A stretch of 64,000 nucleotides of DNA from Bacillota bacterium (GTDB taxonomy: Bacteria > Bacillota > SHA-98 > Ch115 > JABLXJ01), in contig JABLXJ010000002.1 of NCBI GenBank assembly GCA_013178125.1, positions 124,001-188,000 on the forward strand. Reading direction: 5' to 3'. The notes beneath the pieces are model-generated. The model was not told the DNA's origin and made no database searches. It saw only the letters and a list, made by a program, of their open reading frames with translations. Position numbers and translations under genes: made by a program. Shown in pieces: positions 41,231-51,002 of this stretch. Within the stretch, counting starts at the first letter, position 1. Each line of letters opens with the position of its first letter.

Positions 41231-42244
41231 TCAGCTTGCCTTGCCCTTAAGCTCCTTCACCTTCAACACCTCAGTATTGACCAGGTTGGGCGGCACCTCG
41301 CCCTTCAGGATCGCGGCGCACCCCTCGGCGGCCATCGTTGCCATCTTCGTGCGCGTGGCCACGCTCGCGCTCGCGATGTGGGGGGCGATGGTGAGGTTAT
41401 CGAGCCCGAGGATCGGGTGGTTCGCCGGGATGGGCTCAGGCTCGGTGACATCGAGCCCCGCGCCAGCGATCTTGCCATCCCGCAGCGCCTCATACAGGGC
41501 ATCCAGGTCCACGATCGGCCCGCGGGCGGTGTTGATCAGGATCGCGGTCTTTTTCATCATGGCGAGCTCCTGCCTCCCGATCAGGTGGTAGGTCTTATCC
41601 GTCAGGGGCACGTGCAGGCTCACGAAATCCGAGCGCTGCAGCAGCTCCGGGAGCTCGACATACTCAATACCCAGCTCCTTCTCGAATTTCTCGTTCCGGT
41701 AGACATCGTAGTAAAGGAGCTTCATCGAGAAGCCGGTGGCGCGCCTCGCCATCTCATACCCGATCCGCCCGAGGCCCACGAGCCCCAGCGTGGCATGGTG
41801 GATGTCCTGGCCGAGGAAGCCCGTCGGGACCCAGGTTTTCCACTTGCCCTGGCGGGTATGCTTGTCGGCCTCGACGATGCGGCGCGCGCTCGCCATCAGG
41901 AGGGCAAACGCAAAATCTGCGGTCGTGTCCGTGAGGACGCCGGGCGTGTTGGTCACAGCTATACCCCTTTTCGTCGCCTCGGGGATATCGATGTTGTCAA
42001 AGCCTACAGCATAGTTGCTTATGACCTTGAGCTTCTCGCCGGCATCCATGGCCTCTGCATCCATCTTATCGGTAAGGAGGGATATGATCCCGTCTACATC
42101 CCGGATTTCTTTGAGTATGATCTCGCGCGGGGGCGGGAGCTCACCATCCCATACCTTCACATCTGCGACCTTCCGGATGATATCGAGGCCGGCTTCAGGA
42201 ATCTTGCGGGTTACATAGACTTTGAACTTCGCCATAGTCAGCAT
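41231..42244 (-). CDS. D-isomer 2-hydroxyacid dehydrogenase (glycerate/hydroxypyruvate/glyoxylate reductase)
   Basis: About 337 residues. First ATG at 42244 follows GGAGG by five bases; ATG 42235 (MAKFKVYV) is the alternative. NAD(P)-binding 'LGLVGLGRIGYEMARRA', substrate-site 'NYAVGFDNIDIPEATKRGI', catalytic Arg in 'INTARGPIVDLDALYEAL', Glu in 'GAGLDVTEPEP' and His in 'IAPHIASAS' are all present. This is the GyaR/GhrB-type family reducing glyoxylate or hydroxypyruvate. Last gene of a minus-strand operon behind a TIM-barrel isomerase-like gene and a GntR regulator. Confidence 0.9.
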   Translation of the reverse strand: MLTMAKFKVYVTRKIPEAGLDIIRKVADVKVWDGELPPPREIILKEIRDVDGIISLLTDKMDAEAMDAGEKLKVISNYAVGFDNIDIPEATKRGIAVTNTPGVLTDTTADFAFALLMASARRIVEADKHTRQGKWKTWVPTGFLGQDIHHATLGLVGLGRIGYEMARRATGFSMKLLYYDVYRNEKFEKELGIEYVELPELLQRSDFVSLHVPLTDKTYHLIGRQELAMMKKTAILINTARGPIVDLDALYEALRDGKIAGAGLDVTEPEPIPANHPILGLDNLTIAPHIASASVATRTKMATMAAEGCAAILKGEVPPNLVNTEVLKVKELKGKAS

Positions 42245-42280
42245 GTATCCTCCAATCTATATCATCGCCTCTCACGGGCG

Positions 42281-43195
42281 TCACAGGCGGGCCCAGGCTT
42301 CGTTGAGGGTCCTCTTTGCGTTTGCGATCACAATTTCCGACGACTCGCCCGCGAGCGGCTTCACCTCGAAGCTCACTATACGTGGGGCATCCTCATTCAG
42401 ATAGCCGATTTCAAACAACACCCTCAGGAACTCCGTGAGCTCCGCCACGTCATTTTCCCCGCCCGCGATGCCGAATCTGGGGTGGGCATCTCCGTAAGCG
42501 GGATGCGATTTGTCCTTGACCACGGCGTTCCCTATATGGGCGTGCACCAAGTAGTCCTTGACGGGGACGAGCGCATCCCTCGCCGTCTGGCCAAGGAGCG
42601 GCAGGTGGCTCAGGTCAACCATGAGGCCGAAGTTGTCAAACTTCTTCCTGACGTTGCTTGCTATCCTCAGGGCGGTGTCATTCGGCCCCACAAGGGATTT
42701 CTTCTCTATATCCCTGTCGAATATCTCGAGCACAACCGGCATGTCCCCCTTTGACCTGGCGTGAGCGCAGAGCTGCTCGATGGAATCCTCCAGGGCCTGG
42801 CAGGCGTCCTCCTCCCTGTCCTTGCCCGGGTACTTACCGGCGAGGAAAGCAAACCCAACGCATCCGAGCTCGTAAGCCTCATCGATGCCCTCCTTCAGCG
42901 TGGCGATGGTCTTCTCCCTTACGGCAGGGTCGAGCGAGTTGATGTCGAGCCCTGTGGTAAGGGTTCTCGGTTGCCCACCGTAGGCCACCGTCATATGCGC
43001 CTCGTTGAGGAGCTTCCTTGCGGCCTGGCGGACGCCGGGATCCTTCATCCAGGTGACCTCGACGGCGTTGAAGTAATCATCCTCGGCAATCTTCGTGAGG
43101 GTCTCGATGATCGGGCCTTCGCCCTTCATTACCTGAGGATAGGCCATGAAGTGGATCAACCCGACCTTCATGTACCTGTACATTGAGTCCTTCAT
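42281..43195 (-). CDS. Sugar phosphate isomerase/epimerase-like TIM barrel protein
   Basis: About 305 residues from ATG 43195, with AAAGGAG upstream and the stop of the GntR gene (43197) just ahead, so translation is coupled. 'MPVVLEIFDRD' (Glu ligand), 'GLMVDLSHLPLLG' (Asp/His), 'LVHAHIGNAVV' (His) and 'IVSFEVKPLAG' (Glu) follow the metal-binding pattern of the AP_endonuc_2/xylose-isomerase-like family. That family includes hydroxypyruvate isomerase and tagatose epimerase. The downstream hydroxyacid dehydrogenase fits a three-carbon acid or ketose substrate, but this is inference. Confidence 0.8.
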   Translation of the reverse strand: MKDSMYRYMKVGLIHFMAYPQVMKGEGPIIETLTKIAEDDYFNAVEVTWMKDPGVRQAARKLLNEAHMTVAYGGQPRTLTTGLDINSLDPAVREKTIATLKEGIDEAYELGCVGFAFLAGKYPGKDREEDACQALEDSIEQLCAHARSKGDMPVVLEIFDRDIEKKSLVGPNDTALRIASNVRKKFDNFGLMVDLSHLPLLGQTARDALVPVKDYLVHAHIGNAVVKDKSHPAYGDAHPRFGIAGGENDVAELTEFLRVLFEIGYLNEDAPRIVSFEVKPLAGESSEIVIANAKRTLNEAWARL

Positions 43196-43196
43196 A

Positions 43197-43937
43197 CTAT
43201 CCACGCTCCTTTGACTTTGACTTCTTTGCCTCATCCAGGACAAATCCTGCAACGGTATTCAAATGATCCAGAGCGGCCTCTCGCGCGGCTTTTTCGTCCC
43301 TGTTTTCGATGGCCGTGAATATCCTACGGTGCGCTTCGATGGCTGTGGACCTGCCCTCGGCGAGGCGCGCTACGCGCCTGTTGGCCTCCCTCAGGAGCTC
43401 CCTCAGGATCAGGTTCGTCTTGGCGAGCACGGGGTTGCCAGCGGCTTTATCGACCTTTTTATGGAAGAGCATGTCGTATTCCAGGAACTCCTCGACGTTG
43501 CGCGAGGCGCTCTCCTCCATGCGCTCCATGATCTCCCGTATCTCCGAAAGGCACTCCCCAGTCCTGCGGGATGCAGCGAGGCCAGCGGTCTCGACCTCGA
43601 GGATTGAACGAAGCTCCATTATATTGCCGATGTTCTCGGTATCAAACATGAGCACATACGAGAGCGGCTGGATGATCTTCTCCGATGTCGCTTTCGCAAC
43701 AAAGCTGCCCTCGCCCGGACGGATCTCGATCCACCCCATGAGCGCCGCGGCCTTGAGCGCCTCCCTAAGCGATGCCCTGCTCACCCCGAGGGCCGCAGCC
43801 AGCTCGCGCTCGGCCGGGAGCCTGGTGCCCACGGGGAGCTGGCCGTCGAGGATGGCGTTTTGCAGTTGCTCCAGGATGAGGTCGATCATCTGGGGCCGCT
43901 TGATCTTAGCGATCTTAACGAATTGGTCGCCTTCCAA
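43197..43937 (-). CDS. GntR-family (FadR/FCD) transcriptional regulator
   Basis: 246 residues. The winged helix 'LEQLQNAILDGQLPVGTRLP' with 'ERELAAALGVSRASLREALK' is followed by an all-helical FCD effector domain ('ELRSILEVETAGLAA', 'DMLFHKKVDKAAGNP', 'AHRRIFTAIENRDEKAAREA'). FCD regulators bind small organic acids such as lactate, pyruvate or glycolate. It leads the operon with the isomerase-like and dehydrogenase genes. A palindrome fitting this family lies 58 bases upstream. Confidence 0.93.
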   Translation of the reverse strand: MEGDQFVKIAKIKRPQMIDLILEQLQNAILDGQLPVGTRLPAERELAAALGVSRASLREALKAAALMGWIEIRPGEGSFVAKATSEKIIQPLSYVLMFDTENIGNIMELRSILEVETAGLAASRRTGECLSEIREIMERMEESASRNVEEFLEYDMLFHKKVDKAAGNPVLAKTNLILRELLREANRRVARLAEGRSTAIEAHRRIFTAIENRDEKAAREAALDHLNTVAGFVLDEAKKSKSKERG

Positions 43938-43989
43938 AGGCCTGACTCCTTCCTTACGGTTTCCTTATGGTTTCCCTAGGGCCAACAGG

Positions 43990-44018
43990 TTTATTGGTCT
44001 GACCATAGGTCTGGTCAA
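43990..44018 (-). promoter_or_regulatory. Putative promoter of the GntR operon with embedded operator
   Basis: On the minus strand TTGACC (44018-44013), a 17-base spacer and AATAAA (43995-43990). The -10 is weak. The spacer contains the palindrome TGGTCTGACCA (43995-44005), the TGGT-NNN-ACCA form bound by FadR-subfamily GntR proteins, plus a second half-like GGTCTGGTC. Binding there would block the promoter. Confidence 0.5.
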
Positions 44019-44449
44019 CAATCCAGATTATTTTATTCTATGTAGTTGATAGAATTCCTTCAATCGCCATAGAATCATTTCATGTTTAAGCAAAGGCCTG
44101 GCCAAAGCGGGCAAAGGCTTGATTAAAGCGAAGGCTCGGGTGCTAACTCGAAGTCCGCCAATTCAGGGTCCCTGATGTGACATATATCGCATGACCGGGG
44201 CTGTATAATAAGATAAGGGGTAATTGCGGCTGGCGCAATAATAGAGGAATACCCACGGGGAGCGGGTAAGATTAGGTTGAATGCTATCTTGATCCTGCCC
44301 GGTCCCGGGGGGACAGTGCGGGGGGCCTGCACCCATCGCCCAGACCGCACCGGTATCGCCTGGATGGGGGTGGCCCCCGAGCCGCAGCCGCGGCACTCAC
44401 CAAAGGGGCTATAGGCCATGGGGCCGGGGATCTCGAGGAGGCTGGCTCC
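44019..44449. other. Divergent intergenic region before spoIIGA
   Basis: Holds a possible plus-strand sigma-A-type promoter: TTGATA at 44046-44051, an 18-base spacer and TAGAAT at 44070-44075. It is 375 bases ahead of spoIIGA. I see no clear 0A box. The G+C-rich 44270-44440 part has several GGGG/CCCC tracts without one dominant fold. Confidence 0.35.
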
Positions 44450-45334
44450 ATGAATGAGGTAATACTCAGGATACTTCAGAGCGCCCTCATGGCGTTTATC
44501 ATGCACTATCTTATTCTCTGGGCTACGTCGGGAGTGCTCGGGCTTAGAAGCACGAGCGTTAGGCTCTCGCTCGGCGCCTCTCTCGCGACCCTCATCGACG
44601 CGACTATTATTGTCTTGATGGTTGCCAGGGTCATGGCCACCCCTTCGGCGGTTCTCCTGGCTTTTCTATCAATAATCCCAGCAGCGCGCATTTCCTATGG
44701 TCGCCTCCTGCCCCGCAGGCTCGCGGTAACCATCGCTTACGTGTATATCATAACGATAATGGGCGGAGGGGGCGGTCTTGCGGTCTCATACCTGACGGGC
44801 GGCAGGCCCATACCCGCCTTCATAGCCACAATCGCAACCATCCTCGTGGTGGCTGAACTCGGCTGGGGCCTCGTTCACAGGAGGATCCGGGAATGGCTCT
44901 TCTTCGTGCCGATAGAGATATTCTTCGGTGAGGAGCGCGTCTTTGTTAATGCCCTGATAGACACGGGCAACCGCCTGAGGGACCCAATAACGGGAGCGCC
45001 GGTCATAATCCTGGAGTATTCGGCGGTTGCATCGATCCTCCCTGGTGAGGTGCGACAGGTATTTGATTTGCTTGACACGGAGGACCTTGCGGCGATCACC
45101 GATATCGTAGCCAATTCGTCCTGGTCATCGCGGTTCAGAGTTTTACCGTTTGCATCCATAGGAAAGGAAAAGGGGATGCTCATAGGCTTTCGCCCCGATG
45201 AAGTGCGCATAATGGAGGGCGACCGGAGGGCTTCCACCAGGAATGCCGTGGTGGGTATCTACACTCAACGGCTTTCAGCCGAGGGCGGCTTCAGAGCCCT
45301 CCTCCACCCTGAAATCCTTGAATCGGCATCCTGA
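44450..45334 (+). CDS. spoIIGA: Sigma-E processing peptidase SpoIIGA
   Basis: 294 residues. Five hydrophobic segments in the first 140 residues anchor it in the septal membrane. The C-terminal half is a retropepsin-like aspartic protease with 'NALIDTGNRLRDPITGAPVI' (catalytic D171). It cleaves the pro-sequence from sigma-E in the mother cell when signalled by SpoIIR from the forespore. Its substrate gene sigE follows 58 bases downstream and spoIIR lies 1.8 kb further on. GAGGAGG precedes the ATG. Confidence 0.93.
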   Translation: MNEVILRILQSALMAFIMHYLILWATSGVLGLRSTSVRLSLGASLATLIDATIIVLMVARVMATPSAVLLAFLSIIPAARISYGRLLPRRLAVTIAYVYIITIMGGGGGLAVSYLTGGRPIPAFIATIATILVVAELGWGLVHRRIREWLFFVPIEIFFGEERVFVNALIDTGNRLRDPITGAPVIILEYSAVASILPGEVRQVFDLLDTEDLAAITDIVANSSWSSRFRVLPFASIGKEKGMLIGFRPDEVRIMEGDRRASTRNAVVGIYTQRLSAEGGFRALLHPEILESAS

Positions 45335-45392
45335 TGCGAACCAGCATCCTGATACCTGATGCCTGATGCCCATGCGGATAGGAGGGGAGAGA

Positions 45393-46133
45393 ATGACGCC
45401 ACGCGTTGCACTCAATCGGCTCATCTTGTTCCTCCGGCTTTATTTGATCCTTCTCGTGCGCCGGTTGGGCTTATTTCCGGGATATATCATACTGTTCGTT
45501 GGCAACAGTGAGGCTTTGCCGCCACCCCTCTCCAGCGACGAGGAGATATCGCTCTTGAAACGGCTGGCACGTGGGGAAAAGGCCGTGAAGGGCGAGCTTA
45601 TCGAGAGAAACCTGCGCCTTGTTGTGTATATTGCCAAGAAATTCGAGAATACCGGCGTGGGCATAGAGGACCTTGTATCAATAGGCACCATTGGTCTTAT
45701 CAAGGCCGTCAACACATTCGATCCCATGAAAAAGATAAAGCTCGCTACCTACGCCTCACGCTGCATAGAAAATGAGATCCTCATGTATCTGAGGCGAAAT
45801 AACAAGACGAGGGCCGAGGTTTCATTTGATGAACCCCTCAATATCGACTGGGATGGGAATGAGTTGCTGCTTTCCGATGTAATGGGGACCGACAATGACA
45901 TTGTATACAAATCCATTGAGGAGGAGCTGGATAAATCGCTGCTCGAGGCGGCCATGCGTCGCCTCACGGGGCGCGAGAAGAAGATCATGGAGCTCCGCTT
46001 TGGGCTGGTGGATGGTGTGGAGAAGACTCAGAAAGAGGTGGCCGATCTTCTTGGAATATCTCAATCCTATATATCCAGACTTGAAAAGCGTATTATTAGA
46101 AAGCTAAGAAAGGAGATAAAGAGAGCGGAGTAG
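45393..46133 (+). CDS. sigE: RNA polymerase sporulation sigma factor sigma-E (pro-form)
   Basis: About 246 residues from ATG 45393, behind GGAGGGGAG. It has a hydrophobic/basic pro-sequence of about 36-40 residues ending before '[15 protein letters not shown]', longer than in B. subtilis. Then come region 2 ('[20 protein letters not shown]', '[15 protein letters not shown]', '[20 protein letters not shown]') and region 4 ('[20 protein letters not shown]'). It directs early mother-cell transcription once SpoIIGA removes the pro-sequence. A Rho-independent terminator lies 40 bases downstream. Confidence 0.97.
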
Positions 46134-46172
46134 ATTTTGTCGCCATATTAGATAAAATGTCGACTGATCTTT

Positions 46173-46206
46173 AAAATCGCGCGTATATGCGTGATTTTCT
46201 TTTTTA
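46173..46206 (+). terminator. Rho-independent terminator after sigE
   Basis: AAAATCGCGC pairs with GCGTGATTTT (10 pairs, one G-U) around GTATAT, followed by CTTTTTTATT. It ends the spoIIGA-sigE transcript so that sigG depends on its own promoter immediately downstream. Confidence 0.9.
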
Positions 46207-46209
46207 TTC

Positions 46210-46239
46210 GCATAAAAAAGGTAGATGGAGGTAATACTT
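46210..46239 (+). promoter_or_regulatory. Consensus sigma-F promoter upstream of sigG
   Basis: GCATA at 46210-46214, exactly 15 bases, then GGTAATACTT at 46230-46239. This matches the sigma-F consensus GYWTA-N15-GGNRANANTW at every defined position. It lies directly behind the sigE terminator and about 56 bases before the sigG start, consistent with forespore-specific, sigma-F-driven sigG expression as known in B. subtilis. Confidence 0.85.
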
Positions 46240-46294
46240 CTATTGAAAGAATATGGCACTGAAAGGGATAGGCGATCCATCGGGGGGATTCTTC

Positions 46295-47068
46295 ATGCTG
46301 GTCAACAAGGTGGAAATCTGCGGCGTCAACACCTCAAAGCTGCCTGTATTATCCAACCAGAAGATGCGCGAGCTCCTTGTCCAGGTTAGAGCTGGTGACC
46401 GCTCAGCCCGCGAGAAACTGATTCACGGGAATCTCAGGCTGGTCTTGAGCGTTATTCAGCGCTTCAACAACCGCGGAGAGTATGTGGACGACCTGTTCCA
46501 GGTGGGTTGCATCGGACTCATGAAGGCCATAGATAACTTCGATTTAAACCAGAACGTGAGGTTTTCGACATATGCTGTCCCGATGATAATAGGGGAGATA
46601 AGGCGCTACCTGAGGGACAACAACTCGATCAGGGTGAGCCGGTCTTTGAGGGATGTAGCTTACAAGGCCCTTCAGGTACGTGATGCCCTGGTAAACAAGA
46701 ATTCCAAGGAGCCCACCATCAACGAAATTGCAGAGGAGCTCAATCTCCCCCGGGAGGAGATTATATACGCCCTCGATGCTATTCAGGACCCGGTATCTCT
46801 TTTCGAGCCGATATATCACGATGGCGGGGACCCCATATTTGTCATGGACCAGGTGAGCGATGAAAAGAATCAGGATAGCACATGGCTTGAAGGCATATCG
46901 ATAAGAGAGGCGATGGAGAAACTGGGCGAGCGGGAGCGAACCATACTCCGCAAGAGGTTCTTCGAGGGCAAGACGCAGATGGAGGTTGCGGAGGAGATCG
47001 GGATATCCCAGGCCCAGGTCTCGAGGCTCGAAAAGGCTGCCTTGAAGCACATGAGGAAGCTCATGTGA
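46295..47068 (+). CDS. sigG: RNA polymerase sporulation sigma factor sigma-G
   Basis: About 257 residues from ATG 46295, chosen because GGGGGG precedes it and 'NKVEICGVNTSKLPVL' is the conserved sigma-G N terminus; ATG 46253 would add 14 unrelated residues. Regions 2-4 are complete: 'NLRLVLSVIQRFNNRGEYVDD', 'RFSTYAVPMIIGEIRRYL', 'GKTQMEVAEEIGISQAQVSR'. It drives late forespore transcription. It has its own sigma-F-type promoter, and a 34-base palindrome follows the stop. Confidence 0.97.
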   Translation: MLVNKVEICGVNTSKLPVLSNQKMRELLVQVRAGDRSAREKLIHGNLRLVLSVIQRFNNRGEYVDDLFQVGCIGLMKAIDNFDLNQNVRFSTYAVPMIIGEIRRYLRDNNSIRVSRSLRDVAYKALQVRDALVNKNSKEPTINEIAEELNLPREEIIYALDAIQDPVSLFEPIYHDGGDPIFVMDQVSDEKNQDSTWLEGISIREAMEKLGERERTILRKRFFEGKTQMEVAEEIGISQAQVSRLEKAALKHMRKLM

Positions 47069-47101
47069 GCTTATATAGACTTATATAAGTCTATGTAAGC
47101 T
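47068..47101. terminator. 34-base near-perfect palindrome after sigG
   Basis: The inner 20 bases at 47075-47094 (ATAGACTTATATAAGTCTAT) are a perfect palindrome; with AGCTTAT and GTAAGCT on the outside the pairing covers 34 bases with one T-G. It begins at the last base of the sigG stop codon. No U-run follows, so termination is uncertain. A transcription-factor site or cruciform is possible. Confidence 0.6.
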
Positions 47102-47182
47102 GCAACTTTGGAATTCTAACTTCATGAGCCTGATTCATGTAATGGCTTGATGTCCTGGGCACGGGCAGGGGAGGTGAGATGT

Positions 47183-47935
47183 TTGCGGGCGCGTGTTATA
47201 ACAACTTGCGGTATTATAGCTATCGCAGCGATCCTTATAGCCATATCGTCAGCGTTCTCGCCTGCGAATAACAGGGTGGACGAGGCCTATACCCCGGATA
47301 ACCTGGTCCGGCTCCACATCGTAGCAAACAGCGATTCGGCAGCGGATCAGGCCCTGAAATTGGAGGTCAGGGATGTGATCCTTGATATGGCAAGGAAGTT
47401 GCTCGAGGGGGTTACCAGCAAAGAGGAGGCCAGGCAGGTCTTGCAGGAAAACCTGCCGGCATTACAGGAAGCTGCCCGGGCCTATGTTAAGAGCCGCGGC
47501 AGGGATTATCCAGTTATTGCGGAGATGGGGAGGTTCAAGTTTCCAAAGCGGACCTATGGTGATGTCATTGTCCCTGCAGGGAATTATGATGCGCTTCGCA
47601 TAATACTGGGGAAAGGCCTGGGCCAGAACTGGTGGTGCGTTTTATTCCCCCCGCTGTGCTTTGTTGATATATCAAGAGAACGCCTGGCTGTCAGCAGGAT
47701 CAAAGCGGATGGGAGCCCCGAGGAATCGCTATCGAGATTGAAACTCGAGCTCGGGCGATACGCCACCACGCGACAGGGCGGCTTTCTTGCAAAGGACTTG
47801 AAGAGCTTAAAGGAACTGAAGATCCTATCTGATCCCGCGGCGGAGCTTGGGCGGCTCCTGAGCCCCCTAATGTTATTTTACTATGATTACGATGCCCTTG
47901 CCGGGGGTGAGGAGCACAATGAGCGGCTGCAATAA
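47183..47935 (+). CDS. spoIIR: Stage II sporulation protein R
   Basis: About 250 residues. TTG 47183 is preferred because GGGGAGGTGAGA lies nine bases upstream; TTG 47147 and GTG 47174 are in frame. An N-terminal secretion signal ('VITTCGIIAIAAILIAISSA') precedes the SpoIIR domain: 'LVRLHIVANSDSAADQALKL', 'YPVIAEMGRFKFPKRTYGDV', 'QNWWCVLFPPLCFVD'. It is secreted from the forespore into the intermembrane space to activate SpoIIGA. No sigma-F consensus is seen directly upstream, so it may be read from the sigG promoter. Confidence 0.95.
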   Translation: MRARVITTCGIIAIAAILIAISSAFSPANNRVDEAYTPDNLVRLHIVANSDSAADQALKLEVRDVILDMARKLLEGVTSKEEARQVLQENLPALQEAARAYVKSRGRDYPVIAEMGRFKFPKRTYGDVIVPAGNYDALRIILGKGLGQNWWCVLFPPLCFVDISRERLAVSRIKADGSPEESLSRLKLELGRYATTRQGGFLAKDLKSLKELKILSDPAAELGRLLSPLMLFYYDYDALAGGEEHNERLQ

Positions 47936-48060
47936 GCGGCAAGGCAAGTAGGAGCACAAGAAGACAAGAAGAAGCACAAAGTAGATCAGGCGAGTCCGGA
48001 ATAGCACCACCCGGCGTCCGGAAGCATATAATGTGTACGTGAGCGCCGGGGGTGAACGCG

Positions 48061-48327
48061 ATGCTGATAAGGACATCCGAGCTAAGGGTCAAGGATGTCG
48101 TAAACGCTTTGGATGGCCGGAGACTGGGGCCGGTTTCGGACCTCGAGATCGATATTGACACCGGCCAGGTCAAGGCCGTCATGGTGCCGGGCCCGCCGAG
48201 GTTTCTAGGTATAATTGGCCGGGGCAATGATTACGTCATACCGTGGGAGCGCATCAAGCGGATCGGTCTTGATGTGATACTTGTTGAGGTTAGCGATGCC
48301 GTCGATCCCCGGGAGTTTTCGCACTAG
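48061..48327 (+). CDS. YlmC/YmxH-family PRC-barrel sporulation protein
   Basis: 88 residues from ATG 48061, after GGGGGTGA. 'IRTSELRVKDVVNALDGRRL' and 'GPPRFLGIIGRGNDYVIPWERIKRIGLDVILV' are the PRC-barrel pattern of YlmC/YmxH, small proteins linked to sporulation in Bacillota. Molecular role unknown. Terminated by the hairpin at 48395. Confidence 0.9.
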   Translation: MLIRTSELRVKDVVNALDGRRLGPVSDLEIDIDTGQVKAVMVPGPPRFLGIIGRGNDYVIPWERIKRIGLDVILVEVSDAVDPREFSH

Positions 48328-48394
48328 CGAGTTTTTGCATCAGTGAGATGCATCAGTGAGGTCTTACATTAGCGTGACCCCGGCCTGGAGGGGT

Positions 48395-48442
48395 AGCCAG
48401 CTTCCTGTCAATGCAGGTGATGCAGGTGGCTGGCTTGTTTAT
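48395..48442 (+). terminator. Rho-independent terminator after ylmC
   Basis: AGCCAGC..CCTG pairs with CAGG..GCTGGCT with a 2-base internal mismatch, followed by TGTTTATTT. It closes the sporulation block ahead of nrdR. Confidence 0.75.
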
Positions 48443-48580
48443 TTCACGGAAGATGTTATATAATGAGGTTAGGCCTGTCTTTATGTCTTGAATATGCTAA
48501 TTATCTCGATATTAATTTCCCGGTATTAATACTATTGTTAGTTGTCCTGGAGCCACCGTCCGGAGGAGGGAGGCTGGCTC

Positions 48581-49036
48581 ATGAAGTGTCCATATTGCGG
48601 GGCCCCCGAGAGCAAGGTCGTAGATTCGAGAGCGGCTGATGAAGGTAGCTCCATAAGGAGAAGGCGGGAGTGCGTCGCCTGCGGCAAGAGGTTCACCACT
48701 TACGAGGTCGTAGATGAGATACCCTTGACCGTCGTCAAAAAGGACGGGCGGCGCGAGCCATTCGATCGCAACAAGATCCTGGCGGGGCTCCTCAAGGCCT
48801 GCGAGAAGAGGCCGGTCCCTGTGGCCAGACTCGAGGTGCTCGTTGATGGCGTTGAGAGGGCCCTCAGGGGGAAACTGGAGCGGGAGGTCAGCAGTTCGGA
48901 GATCGGGGAGATGGTCATGGAAGGGCTCCGGGATATAGACGAGGTCGCCTATGTGCGGTTTGCGTCGGTTTACAGGCAATTCAAAGACATCGATCGTTTC
49001 ATGCAGGAACTCCAGAAGCTCTTGAATGATAGATGA
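48581..49036 (+). CDS. nrdR: Transcriptional repressor NrdR
   Basis: About 151 residues from ATG 48581 behind GGAGGGAGG. Zinc ribbon with CPYCG and [12 protein letters not shown], then an ATP-cone domain ('[20 protein letters not shown]', '[15 protein letters not shown]'). NrdR senses ATP/dATP and represses ribonucleotide reductase genes. Standard length. No reductase gene is in the window. Confidence 0.97.
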
Positions 49037-49125
49037 TGGGTGGTTATGAAGGATTTGCCTCCCTGGTGTAGAAACAGTAAGGGAGACAAGTCTGCTCTGG
49101 GAATGCGGTTGCTGGAGGTGGGAGC

Positions 49126-50274
49126 ATGCCATCCGGGAGAAGGCGCAGTGCAAGCAGGTTTATCCCGGTGGTCCTTCTGACAGTCGCCGGAGCCATGCTC
49201 TGGTCGATCTATTCCGGTTTTCATATCCCATCAACCATATCTGATGTACAACTGGCAACCGCGGAGCGAAGGGTTATTGAGGATACATTCCCGGCAAAGG
49301 GCGTTTTCATAAGGGATGAAGAGGTGTATATCTCCCCGGTTGCAGGGGTCGCGGAGCTTCTCGCCGGCAACGGGGCCATGGTGAGGGCCAGGACGCCGGT
49401 CGCCAGGGTCGCGGGTCCCTATTCCCGGTATTGGCAGGAGGATGAACCAGGGCTCAGACCAGGGGGCGTCAGAGCAGAGGGCGGTGGCACGGGATCTGCC
49501 GGAGATGCCGGGGAGCCCTCGCAGGGCGCTGGCGCTTCGCGGGACGCCTCGCAGGACGTTGTCGTGCTCGGCGCGCGCTCGCCCGGCATTGTGCGCTACA
49601 GTATCGATGGCCTGGAATCCATCTTATGTCGCGAGTCACCGCCTAACCTGACGCTCGAGGAGCTGACCTCCTTGAAGAAGCCCCCTGAGCGTGTGAAGAA
49701 TGGCGATAGGGTTGCCGCCGGAGCGGCGGTCTTCAAGATTGTTGACCCTGCGCACCTCGATGTTCTTGTATATGGTCCGGCAGGGGATATTGGGCGGCTG
49801 TCCGTGGGGAAAAGGGTGTGGGTGAGGTTCCCGGGCGACCCGGGCGAAGGGCTTGACCCGGTGCCAGGCCGCATCGTGAGGGTATCTGTTCCTCCCAGGA
49901 GGCCCGGGAAGTCCAGGGATGCCGGTGGCATGGGCCCTGGTGACGCGCAAGGGGGCAAAGCGCCAGGGGGCGGGGGCCGGGACCTGACCGGCTCGGCCGT
50001 TATCGAGCTTGACGAGTGGATTCATGGGGCGGATGGGCAGAGGTTTGTTGACGTCTGCATCATTTCCGACATCGTGGAGGGTGTTTCGGTCCCGGTCGAG
50101 GCGATCGTCAAAAGGGGAGGTAAGGCCCTCGTATACGTTTCCAGGAGGTCCGGCATTTCAATGCGTGAGGTCTCAGTAAGGGCGCGGAATCCGAGATACG
50201 CTATAGTGAAGGGTGTGGAGGATGGCCAGGCCGTGATCATAAATCCCCTGGTGTTGGAAAGGCAGGGGATGTAG
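49126..50274 (+). CDS. HlyD-like membrane-fusion/adaptor protein
   Basis: 382 residues, ATG behind GGAGGTGGGAGC. One N-terminal membrane segment ('FIPVVLLTVAGAMLWSIYSG'), then 'GVFIRDEEVYISPVAGVAEL' and 'KNGDRVAAGAAVFKIVDPAHLDVLVYGPAGD', the lipoyl/barrel-sandwich pattern of HlyD proteins. Residues about 108-150 and 264-290 are Gly/Arg/Asp-rich low-complexity linkers. It is set between nrdR and ylmE, as seen for similar proteins in other clostridia-like genomes. No partner ABC exporter is next to it. It may act in the envelope or division rather than in efflux. Confidence 0.7.
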   Translation: MPSGRRRSASRFIPVVLLTVAGAMLWSIYSGFHIPSTISDVQLATAERRVIEDTFPAKGVFIRDEEVYISPVAGVAELLAGNGAMVRARTPVARVAGPYSRYWQEDEPGLRPGGVRAEGGGTGSAGDAGEPSQGAGASRDASQDVVVLGARSPGIVRYSIDGLESILCRESPPNLTLEELTSLKKPPERVKNGDRVAAGAAVFKIVDPAHLDVLVYGPAGDIGRLSVGKRVWVRFPGDPGEGLDPVPGRIVRVSVPPRRPGKSRDAGGMGPGDAQGGKAPGGGGRDLTGSAVIELDEWIHGADGQRFVDVCIISDIVEGVSVPVEAIVKRGGKALVYVSRRSGISMREVSVRARNPRYAIVKGVEDGQAVIINPLVLERQGM

Positions 50275-50276
50275 AC

Positions 50277-51002
50277 GTGGATGACATGGATGCCGCGGGC
50301 GGGGAGCTTGCGGGGCGTCTCTCGGCCATTAGGGAGAGGATATCTGCAGCGGCGATCAGGTCGGGCCGGAGGCCTGAGGATATCAGGTTGATTGCCGTAA
50401 CTAAGGGCGTAGACAGCGCGAGGGTCCGGCAGGCCATCGATCTCGGGGTTGACGCAATAGGGGAAAATAGGGTCCAGGAGGCCAGGGCAAAGCTCCTCGA
50501 TATCGGACGGGGTCCGGGCTCGGGCGTGGAGTGGCACATGGTAGGACACCTCCAGACGAATAAGGTAAGGGCCGCGCTCGAGATCTTCGATGTCATCCAG
50601 TCGCTTGACAGGTGGAAGCTGGCCTCCGAGCTCGATGCTCATGCCCGAAAACGAGGGATGCCCGTCGACGCGCTGGTTCAAGTCAAGGTATCAGACGAGG
50701 AGACGAAGTCGGGCCTCGATCCTTCCGAGGTCCTGGACTTCGTCAGCCGGGTTGCGGCCGAACTGCCGGGCCTGAGGATTGTTGGGTTGATGGGGATCGC
50801 GCCGTATTTCGACGATCCGGAGAAAACCCGGCCCTATTTCAGACGGGTGCGGGTGCTGGGGTTGATGATCGAGGAGGCCAGGATCCCGGGCGTGGCCATG
50901 CAGTATCTCTCCATGGGCATGACGAACGATTTCGAGGTGGCTATAGAGGAAGGTTCAAATATGGTCCGGATAGGAACAGGAATATTTGGTCCGCGGCGGT
51001 GA
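50277..51002 (+). CDS. YggS/YlmE-family PLP homeostasis protein
   Basis: 241 residues. 'IRLIAVTKGVDSARVRQAID' supplies the PLP-lysine; 'IGENRVQEARAKL', 'WHMVGHLQTNKV', 'LSMGMTNDFEVAIEEGSNMVRIGTGIFG' complete the single-domain alanine-racemase-fold family. It buffers pyridoxal phosphate and has no racemase activity in known members. It starts at GTG three bases after the HlyD-like stop and precedes sepF, the usual ylmE-sepF order. Confidence 0.95.
   Translation: MDDMDAAGGELAGRLSAIRERISAAAIRSGRRPEDIRLIAVTKGVDSARVRQAIDLGVDAIGENRVQEARAKLLDIGRGPGSGVEWHMVGHLQTNKVRAALEIFDVIQSLDRWKLASELDAHARKRGMPVDALVQVKVSDEETKSGLDPSEVLDFVSRVAAELPGLRIVGLMGIAPYFDDPEKTRPYFRRVRVLGLMIEEARIPGVAMQYLSMGMTNDFEVAIEEGSNMVRIGTGIFGPRR

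Follow-up and report, generated by a model that had tools for sequence, protein, structure and literature searches.

A predicted terminator and a sigma-F-type promoter at the head of a probable sigG-spoIIR unit, and the relation of read-through blocks before sigG to gene order in endospore formers

In the DNA analysed here (a 64,000-nucleotide stretch, hereafter the window), a hairpin with a T run and a sigma-F-type promoter follow each other within 67 bases of the gap between sigE and sigG, and spoIIR is the next gene after sigG. We consider it fairly likely that these 67 bases form the insulated start of a forespore operon, in which a terminator is needed because spoIIR is on the same RNA. 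A broader proposition, which we regard as evenly balanced, is that across endospore formers the means of blocking read-through into sigG depends on the gene behind sigG: a terminator would replace a mask over the sigG ribosome-binding site (RBS) where a spoIIR gene without a sigma-F promoter of its own follows, since only a stop of transcription would separate SpoIIGA, pro-sigma-E and SpoIIR.

The genes of the locus are all on the + strand, in the order spoIIGA, sigE, sigG, spoIIR, a ylmC/ymxH-type gene and nrdR; coordinates are collected in the table. The sigE-sigG gap is 161 bases long, and the hairpin with its T run precedes the promoter in it. The true start of sigG is the ATG at 46295 (MLVNKVEI, with a full TIGR02850 match), as against a mechanical open reading frame start at 46253. 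The spoIIR gene, missed in the preliminary description, is the sole TIGR02837 match in the assembly, and a match to a sigF-type sigma gene is present in the same genome (G000:C1:398577-399299).

Table. Features of the spoIIGA-spoIIR region, in positions of the window
Feature	Position	Strand	Basis
spoIIGA, protease activating pro-sigma-E	44450..45334	+	TIGR02854, E=1.4e-45, 155.9 bits, under the curated cut-off of 209.55; gene order
sigE (pro-sigma-E)	45366..46133	+	NF006158, 403.4 bits, and TIGR02835, 401.9 bits, both above cut-off
Intrinsic terminator (predicted): hairpin 46173-46198, T run 46200-46208	46173..46208	+	Sequence, shuffles, like element in L002
PsigG, sigma-F-type: -35 GCATA 46210-46214, 15 bases, -10 GGTAATACTT 46230-46239	46210..46239	+	Pattern score, conservation
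Probable start of the sigG-spoIIR RNA, approximate	46246	+	Distance from the -10 box, established promoter spacing
Likely sigG Shine-Dalgarno sequence, GGGGGG	46282..46287	+	Best 16S-tail pairing; 22 bases 5' of the NKVEI codon
sigG, ATG 46295	46295..47068	+	TIGR02850, 507.9 bits, above cut-off
spoIIR, forespore signal for sigma-E activation; start TTG 47183 or GTG 47174	47183..47935	+	TIGR02837, 186.9 bits, above cut-off

SpoIIR is the trigger of sigma-E activation, a signal passed from the forespore to the mother cell, and cell-type fidelity in sporulation requires that it be produced in the forespore. Loci were called linked when spoIIR lies behind sigG, as in 110 of 239 loci, one of them L050 from Moorella mulderi, and sigE-adjacent when sigE lies upstream of sigG. 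A hidden sigma-F promoter between the two genes was rejected: the best site in 46901-47185 of the window reached only 9 of 12, and the 110 sigG-spoIIR junctions resembled shuffled DNA, a site of at least 11 being found in three of them and in seven of 110 shuffled ones. In 30 genomes searched, where the spoIIR genes of all 30 loci were located by match position, a sigma-F-like site preceded 17 of 22 unlinked spoIIR genes (2.8 expected), none of six linked ones and neither of two that lie behind a SigG-like paralogue. The spoIIR genes of B. subtilis, C. difficile and the unlinked genomes studied here, which have a sigma-F promoter of their own, likewise provide forespore expression of the sigma-E-activating signal, whereas that of the window lies on the same strand directly behind sigG, with no such site. 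As linked spoIIR genes have no sigma-F-like site of their own, PsigG is the only forespore promoter visible for them, and it probably drives both sigG and spoIIR.

Two side observations concern this region. A near-perfect palindrome at 47068-47101, between sigG and spoIIR, gives a strong hairpin (z -6.1) without a T run, which might lower the level of the spoIIR portion of the RNA or bring about its processing. It was not seen by eye in L002, of the same genus, and it is not a dispersed repeat, a single site being found in the genome with up to three mismatches allowed. In L270 (genome G020) and L271 (genome G024), a second, diverged SigG-like gene lies directly 5' of spoIIR; the high-scoring sigG of these genomes (L127, L124) is elsewhere, behind sigE, and the best sigma-F-like sites before the two paralogues score 11 and 10 of 12, inside the shuffled range.

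From these features we infer termination, sigma-F dependence, co-transcription of sigG with spoIIR and a selective reason for the arrangement. RNA polymerase arriving from spoIIGA-sigE would halt at the hairpin and T run and, in the forespore, polymerase carrying sigma-F would start near 46246 and transcribe sigG and then spoIIR. A read-through RNA covering spoIIGA, sigE, sigG and spoIIR would bring together in one cell the coding sequences of the protease, of its substrate pro-sigma-E and of the activator. A mask over the sigG RBS would leave spoIIR translatable, whereas a terminator would block both genes, and this would be the reason for the terminator of the window; because masking protects sigG alone, transcription itself would have to stop where spoIIR follows. 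In engineered B. subtilis, according to a passage of PMC4703394, vegetative production of SpoIIGA, pro-sigma-E and SpoIIR results in sigma-E activity without sporulation.

The two devices were compared across genomes. For each sigE-adjacent locus we took the best intrinsic terminator before PsigG (dG of -8 or lower) and the mask, defined as the probability, predicted from in silico folds, of the sigG RBS being paired with RNA that lies 5' of the transcription start, and called at a probability of at least 0.5. From 187 such loci five were left out (L170 and L057, with short downstream DNA; L126, L129 and L236, with a promoter score below 11), so that 182 remained, 171 of them distinct. Of the 63 linked loci 49 had a terminator before PsigG, as had 22 of the 108 unlinked ones (p=1.7e-13), and an RBS mask was predicted in 17 of 63 linked and 75 of 108 unlinked ones (p=9.6e-8). 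The linked loci comprised 39 with a terminator only, seven with a mask only, ten with both and seven with neither; the corresponding numbers for unlinked loci were 13, 66, 9 and 20. L025 and L111 are among the 14 linked loci of 63 that have no terminator by our rule. Shuffling of the spacers left a terminator call in 8.5% of the linked loci and 2.5% of the unlinked ones, and the terminator contrast persisted at dG cut-offs from -6 to -12. Masking exceeded spacer-shuffled controls in unlinked loci (0.60 vs 0.39, p=1e-9); in linked loci it did not (0.30 vs 0.26, p=0.64).

The first loci, from which the idea came, had a terminator in 18 of 25 linked and 12 of 69 unlinked cases, and a mask in 9 of 25 and 47 of 69. 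In the later loci L131-L238, hand-picked among the matches listed, with some congeners skipped and three added, and not independent by ancestry, the counts were 31 of 38 and 10 of 39 for the terminator and 8 of 38 and 28 of 39 for the mask. Loci without sigE upstream stand outside the contrast; 38 of them were linked (terminator in 14, mask in 7) and 12 unlinked (terminator in 4, mask in 6).

The preliminary description had proposed that the terminator isolates sigG from read-through. This is the natural reading of the sequence, the succession of terminator and promoter being well supported and the promoter widely conserved, but it holds only in part: the insulated unit is probably sigG-spoIIR, because the spoIIR gene that follows sigG has no promoter of its own that could be detected, and in unlinked sigE-adjacent loci the customary device is the mask and not a terminator.

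A different account, which we consider rather unlikely, is that an ordinary terminator precedes PsigG, that spoIIR has no special role, and that the association results from shared ancestry and from the longer spacers of the linked lineages. On a single SigE+SigG tree obtained by a quick search (173 rows, by protein), the minimum number of changes was about 11 for linkage, 31 for the terminator and 33 for the mask. Only five supported independent pairs were available and they gave no trend (terminator changing the same way 1.8, the other way 1.2; mask 0.2 and 1.0), which is in favour of ancestry, as is the presence of terminators in some of the unlinked loci. When terminator was paired against mask, 4.1 of 16 pairs were opposite and 1.2 the same (median p 0.375). 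On the other side, a model in which gain and loss of a device depend on linkage fitted better, for the terminator (p=0.0008) and for the mask (p=0.011), with one tree and three starts. With one row kept per clade, the terminator contrast survived thinning (median p 1.5e-6 with 110 clades, 7.7e-5 with 67, 0.0078 with 48 and 0.019 with 28), whereas the mask contrast faded (2.6e-5, 0.0033, 0.049 and 0.43, respectively).

Spacers were also longer in linked than in unlinked loci (median 98 vs 39 bases), so that room in the spacer is a partial confounder. The terminator contrast was nevertheless retained in spacers of at least 50 bases (51 of 61 linked vs 21 of 44 unlinked) and with 15-nt promoters only (51 of 65 vs 16 of 55), and the position of spoIIR behind sigG, with no visible promoter of its own, likewise argues for a role of linkage. 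Shared ancestry as the whole explanation is weakened, although well-supported independent switches are too few to decide against it.

The full-consensus sigma-F promoter sequence placed at 46210 by the preliminary description was confirmed, with all 12 informative positions of the pattern GYWTA - 14 to 16 bases - GGNRANANTW matched at a spacing of 15. When the 200 upstream bases were shuffled with dinucleotides preserved, only 6 of 2000 sequences reached this score. The 3.48 Mb genome contains the strict pattern GYATA-N15-GGNAANANTW three times and the reversed control pattern twice, so that genome-wide the strict pattern is at chance level; a match inside this single spacer is not expected by luck. 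By strict scoring, 84 of 121 sigG upstream regions (the window counted twice, as itself and as L008) had at least 11 of 12 positions, against about 4.8 expected from shuffles; 10 of the 131 records fell outside the first anchor motif and were added later by profile. A relaxed score accepted any base at the last position and A at the second -35 position, and shuffled 230-base regions reached 11 in about 2.8 of 22 cases; with it, a site of at least 11 of 12 was found before sigG in 234 of 239 loci, or 223 of 228 distinct ones, the spacing being 15 nt in 156 and 14 nt in 67 of the latter.

On this sequence evidence the element is the known PsigG, the spoIIIG promoter of B. subtilis and of Clostridia, which has the same sigma-F-type boxes between sigE and sigG, and this part of the locus is ordinary. 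The 15-nt spacing and ATG start of the window are the commoner state in Clostridia, according to passages of PMC5942855, whereas in B. subtilis PsigG has 14-nt spacing, sigG begins with GTG and the leader carries an RBS hairpin. Among sigE-adjacent loci, 65 of 68 linked and 55 of 116 unlinked ones have the 15-nt spacing; spoIIR linkage as the cause of spacing was dropped, many 14-nt loci being named Bacilli, so that such an effect is inseparable from ancestry. The -10 region of the window (46224-46244) also contains a GGAGGT, Shine-Dalgarno-like before TTG 46243, and a nine-pair inverted repeat; in L002 an ATG with a short open reading frame occupies the place corresponding to this TTG.

Since sigma-F and sigma-G boxes overlap, it is conceivable, although we think it unlikely, that those of PsigG are used mainly by sigma-G, in autoregulation, or by both factors, in which case the insulator would matter more for the late loop than for the sigma-F step. 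The C. difficile evidence on this point is mixed in the passages concerned: transcriptomes placed sigG under sigma-G and not sigma-F control despite its sigma-F-like boxes (PMC7438776), which together with sigma-G autoregulation (PMC5942855) speaks for such use, whereas a PsigG fusion depended on sigma-F (PMC3789822). In addition, GG opens the -10 box, and the boxes are the same as those before most unlinked spoIIR genes, spoIIR being a known sigma-F target; both observations favour sigma-F.

The terminator end given in the preliminary description, 46206, is fair: the hairpin has 11 pairs (four of them G-C) and a loop of four, and is followed by a single C and then by TTTTTTATT, a T run directly 3' of a G+C-containing stem. 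A simple scan of 42000-50500 proves little by itself, because it returned eight terminator-like sites (one nested in the sigE hairpin) against 6.7 (sd 2.4) in shuffled sequence; the sigE hairpin is the one with most pairs among them. The fold of 46130-46212 was matched or bettered by only 4 of 200 shuffles (z -2.4), and in L002 a comparable hairpin with a T run occupies that position too. The preliminary description had also called for alignment of this spacer in relatives. The promoter is widely kept; L025 and L111, the two other genomes of the same order, have no terminator before PsigG by our rule. In itself, the succession of terminator and sigma-F-type promoter is ordinary. That the hairpin terminates poorly, so that read-through continues and is dealt with by RNA processing or translation, could be argued from the scan and from a stem in which half of the pairs are A-T or G-T, and is quite improbable given the fold, the T run, the conserved position in L002 and the lack of an RBS mask in the window.

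For B. subtilis, it has been proposed that a large hairpin keeps sigG from being translated off read-through RNA (PMC5942855), and a passage of C. acetobutylicum work cites the early read-through RNA as untranslated in B. subtilis (PMC2530871). This hairpin over the sigG RBS has the same task as the terminator of the window, namely that no sigma-G be made from spoIIGA-sigE read-through; the window is predicted to stop transcription instead, and a read-through mask of the B. subtilis type is absent from it (P_up 0.00). Many relatives have a promoter region complementary to the sequence around the sigG RBS, a mask present in read-through RNA alone, and in 25 of 115 distinct loci the pairing of a promoter with its own RBS was equalled by at most 5% of promoter swaps. 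As for an RBS hairpin of the B. subtilis type in the PsigG transcript of the window, the RBS pairing is 0.63, but the leader folds no more stably than shuffled sequence (z +0.39; 138 of 200 shuffles equal it), and the idea was not retained.

Leaders of sigG just 3' of PsigG in family f3 share a conserved stretch like GCTGAGATATTYTGGAAACG, with a mean ungapped identity of 0.66 in 13 loci (L004-L007, L009, L012, L013, L016, L020, L021, L023, L027 and L119) and of 0.35 before the -35 box; L025 and L111 have similar letters. The possibility that the leaders of this class encode a peptide in their conserved part was rejected, start codons and frames varying among relatives as judged by eye. The L002 leader has about 88 more bases between PsigG and sigG than that of the window, and the two are alike at both ends.

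Linkage of sigG and spoIIR was not found in the titles, abstract openings and passages of the open-licence PMC papers searched; the spoIIR cistron and a choice of insulation that depends on linkage, neither of which appeared in that literature, are what the present analysis adds. If these proposals are true, a single 70-base insulator would guard both sigma-G in the forespore and the timing of sigma-E in the mother cell, in little-studied lineages, and gene order would predict the type of insulation. The B. subtilis picture, with translational masking and an unlinked spoIIR, would then not be transferable to many Clostridia-like genomes of the linked order.
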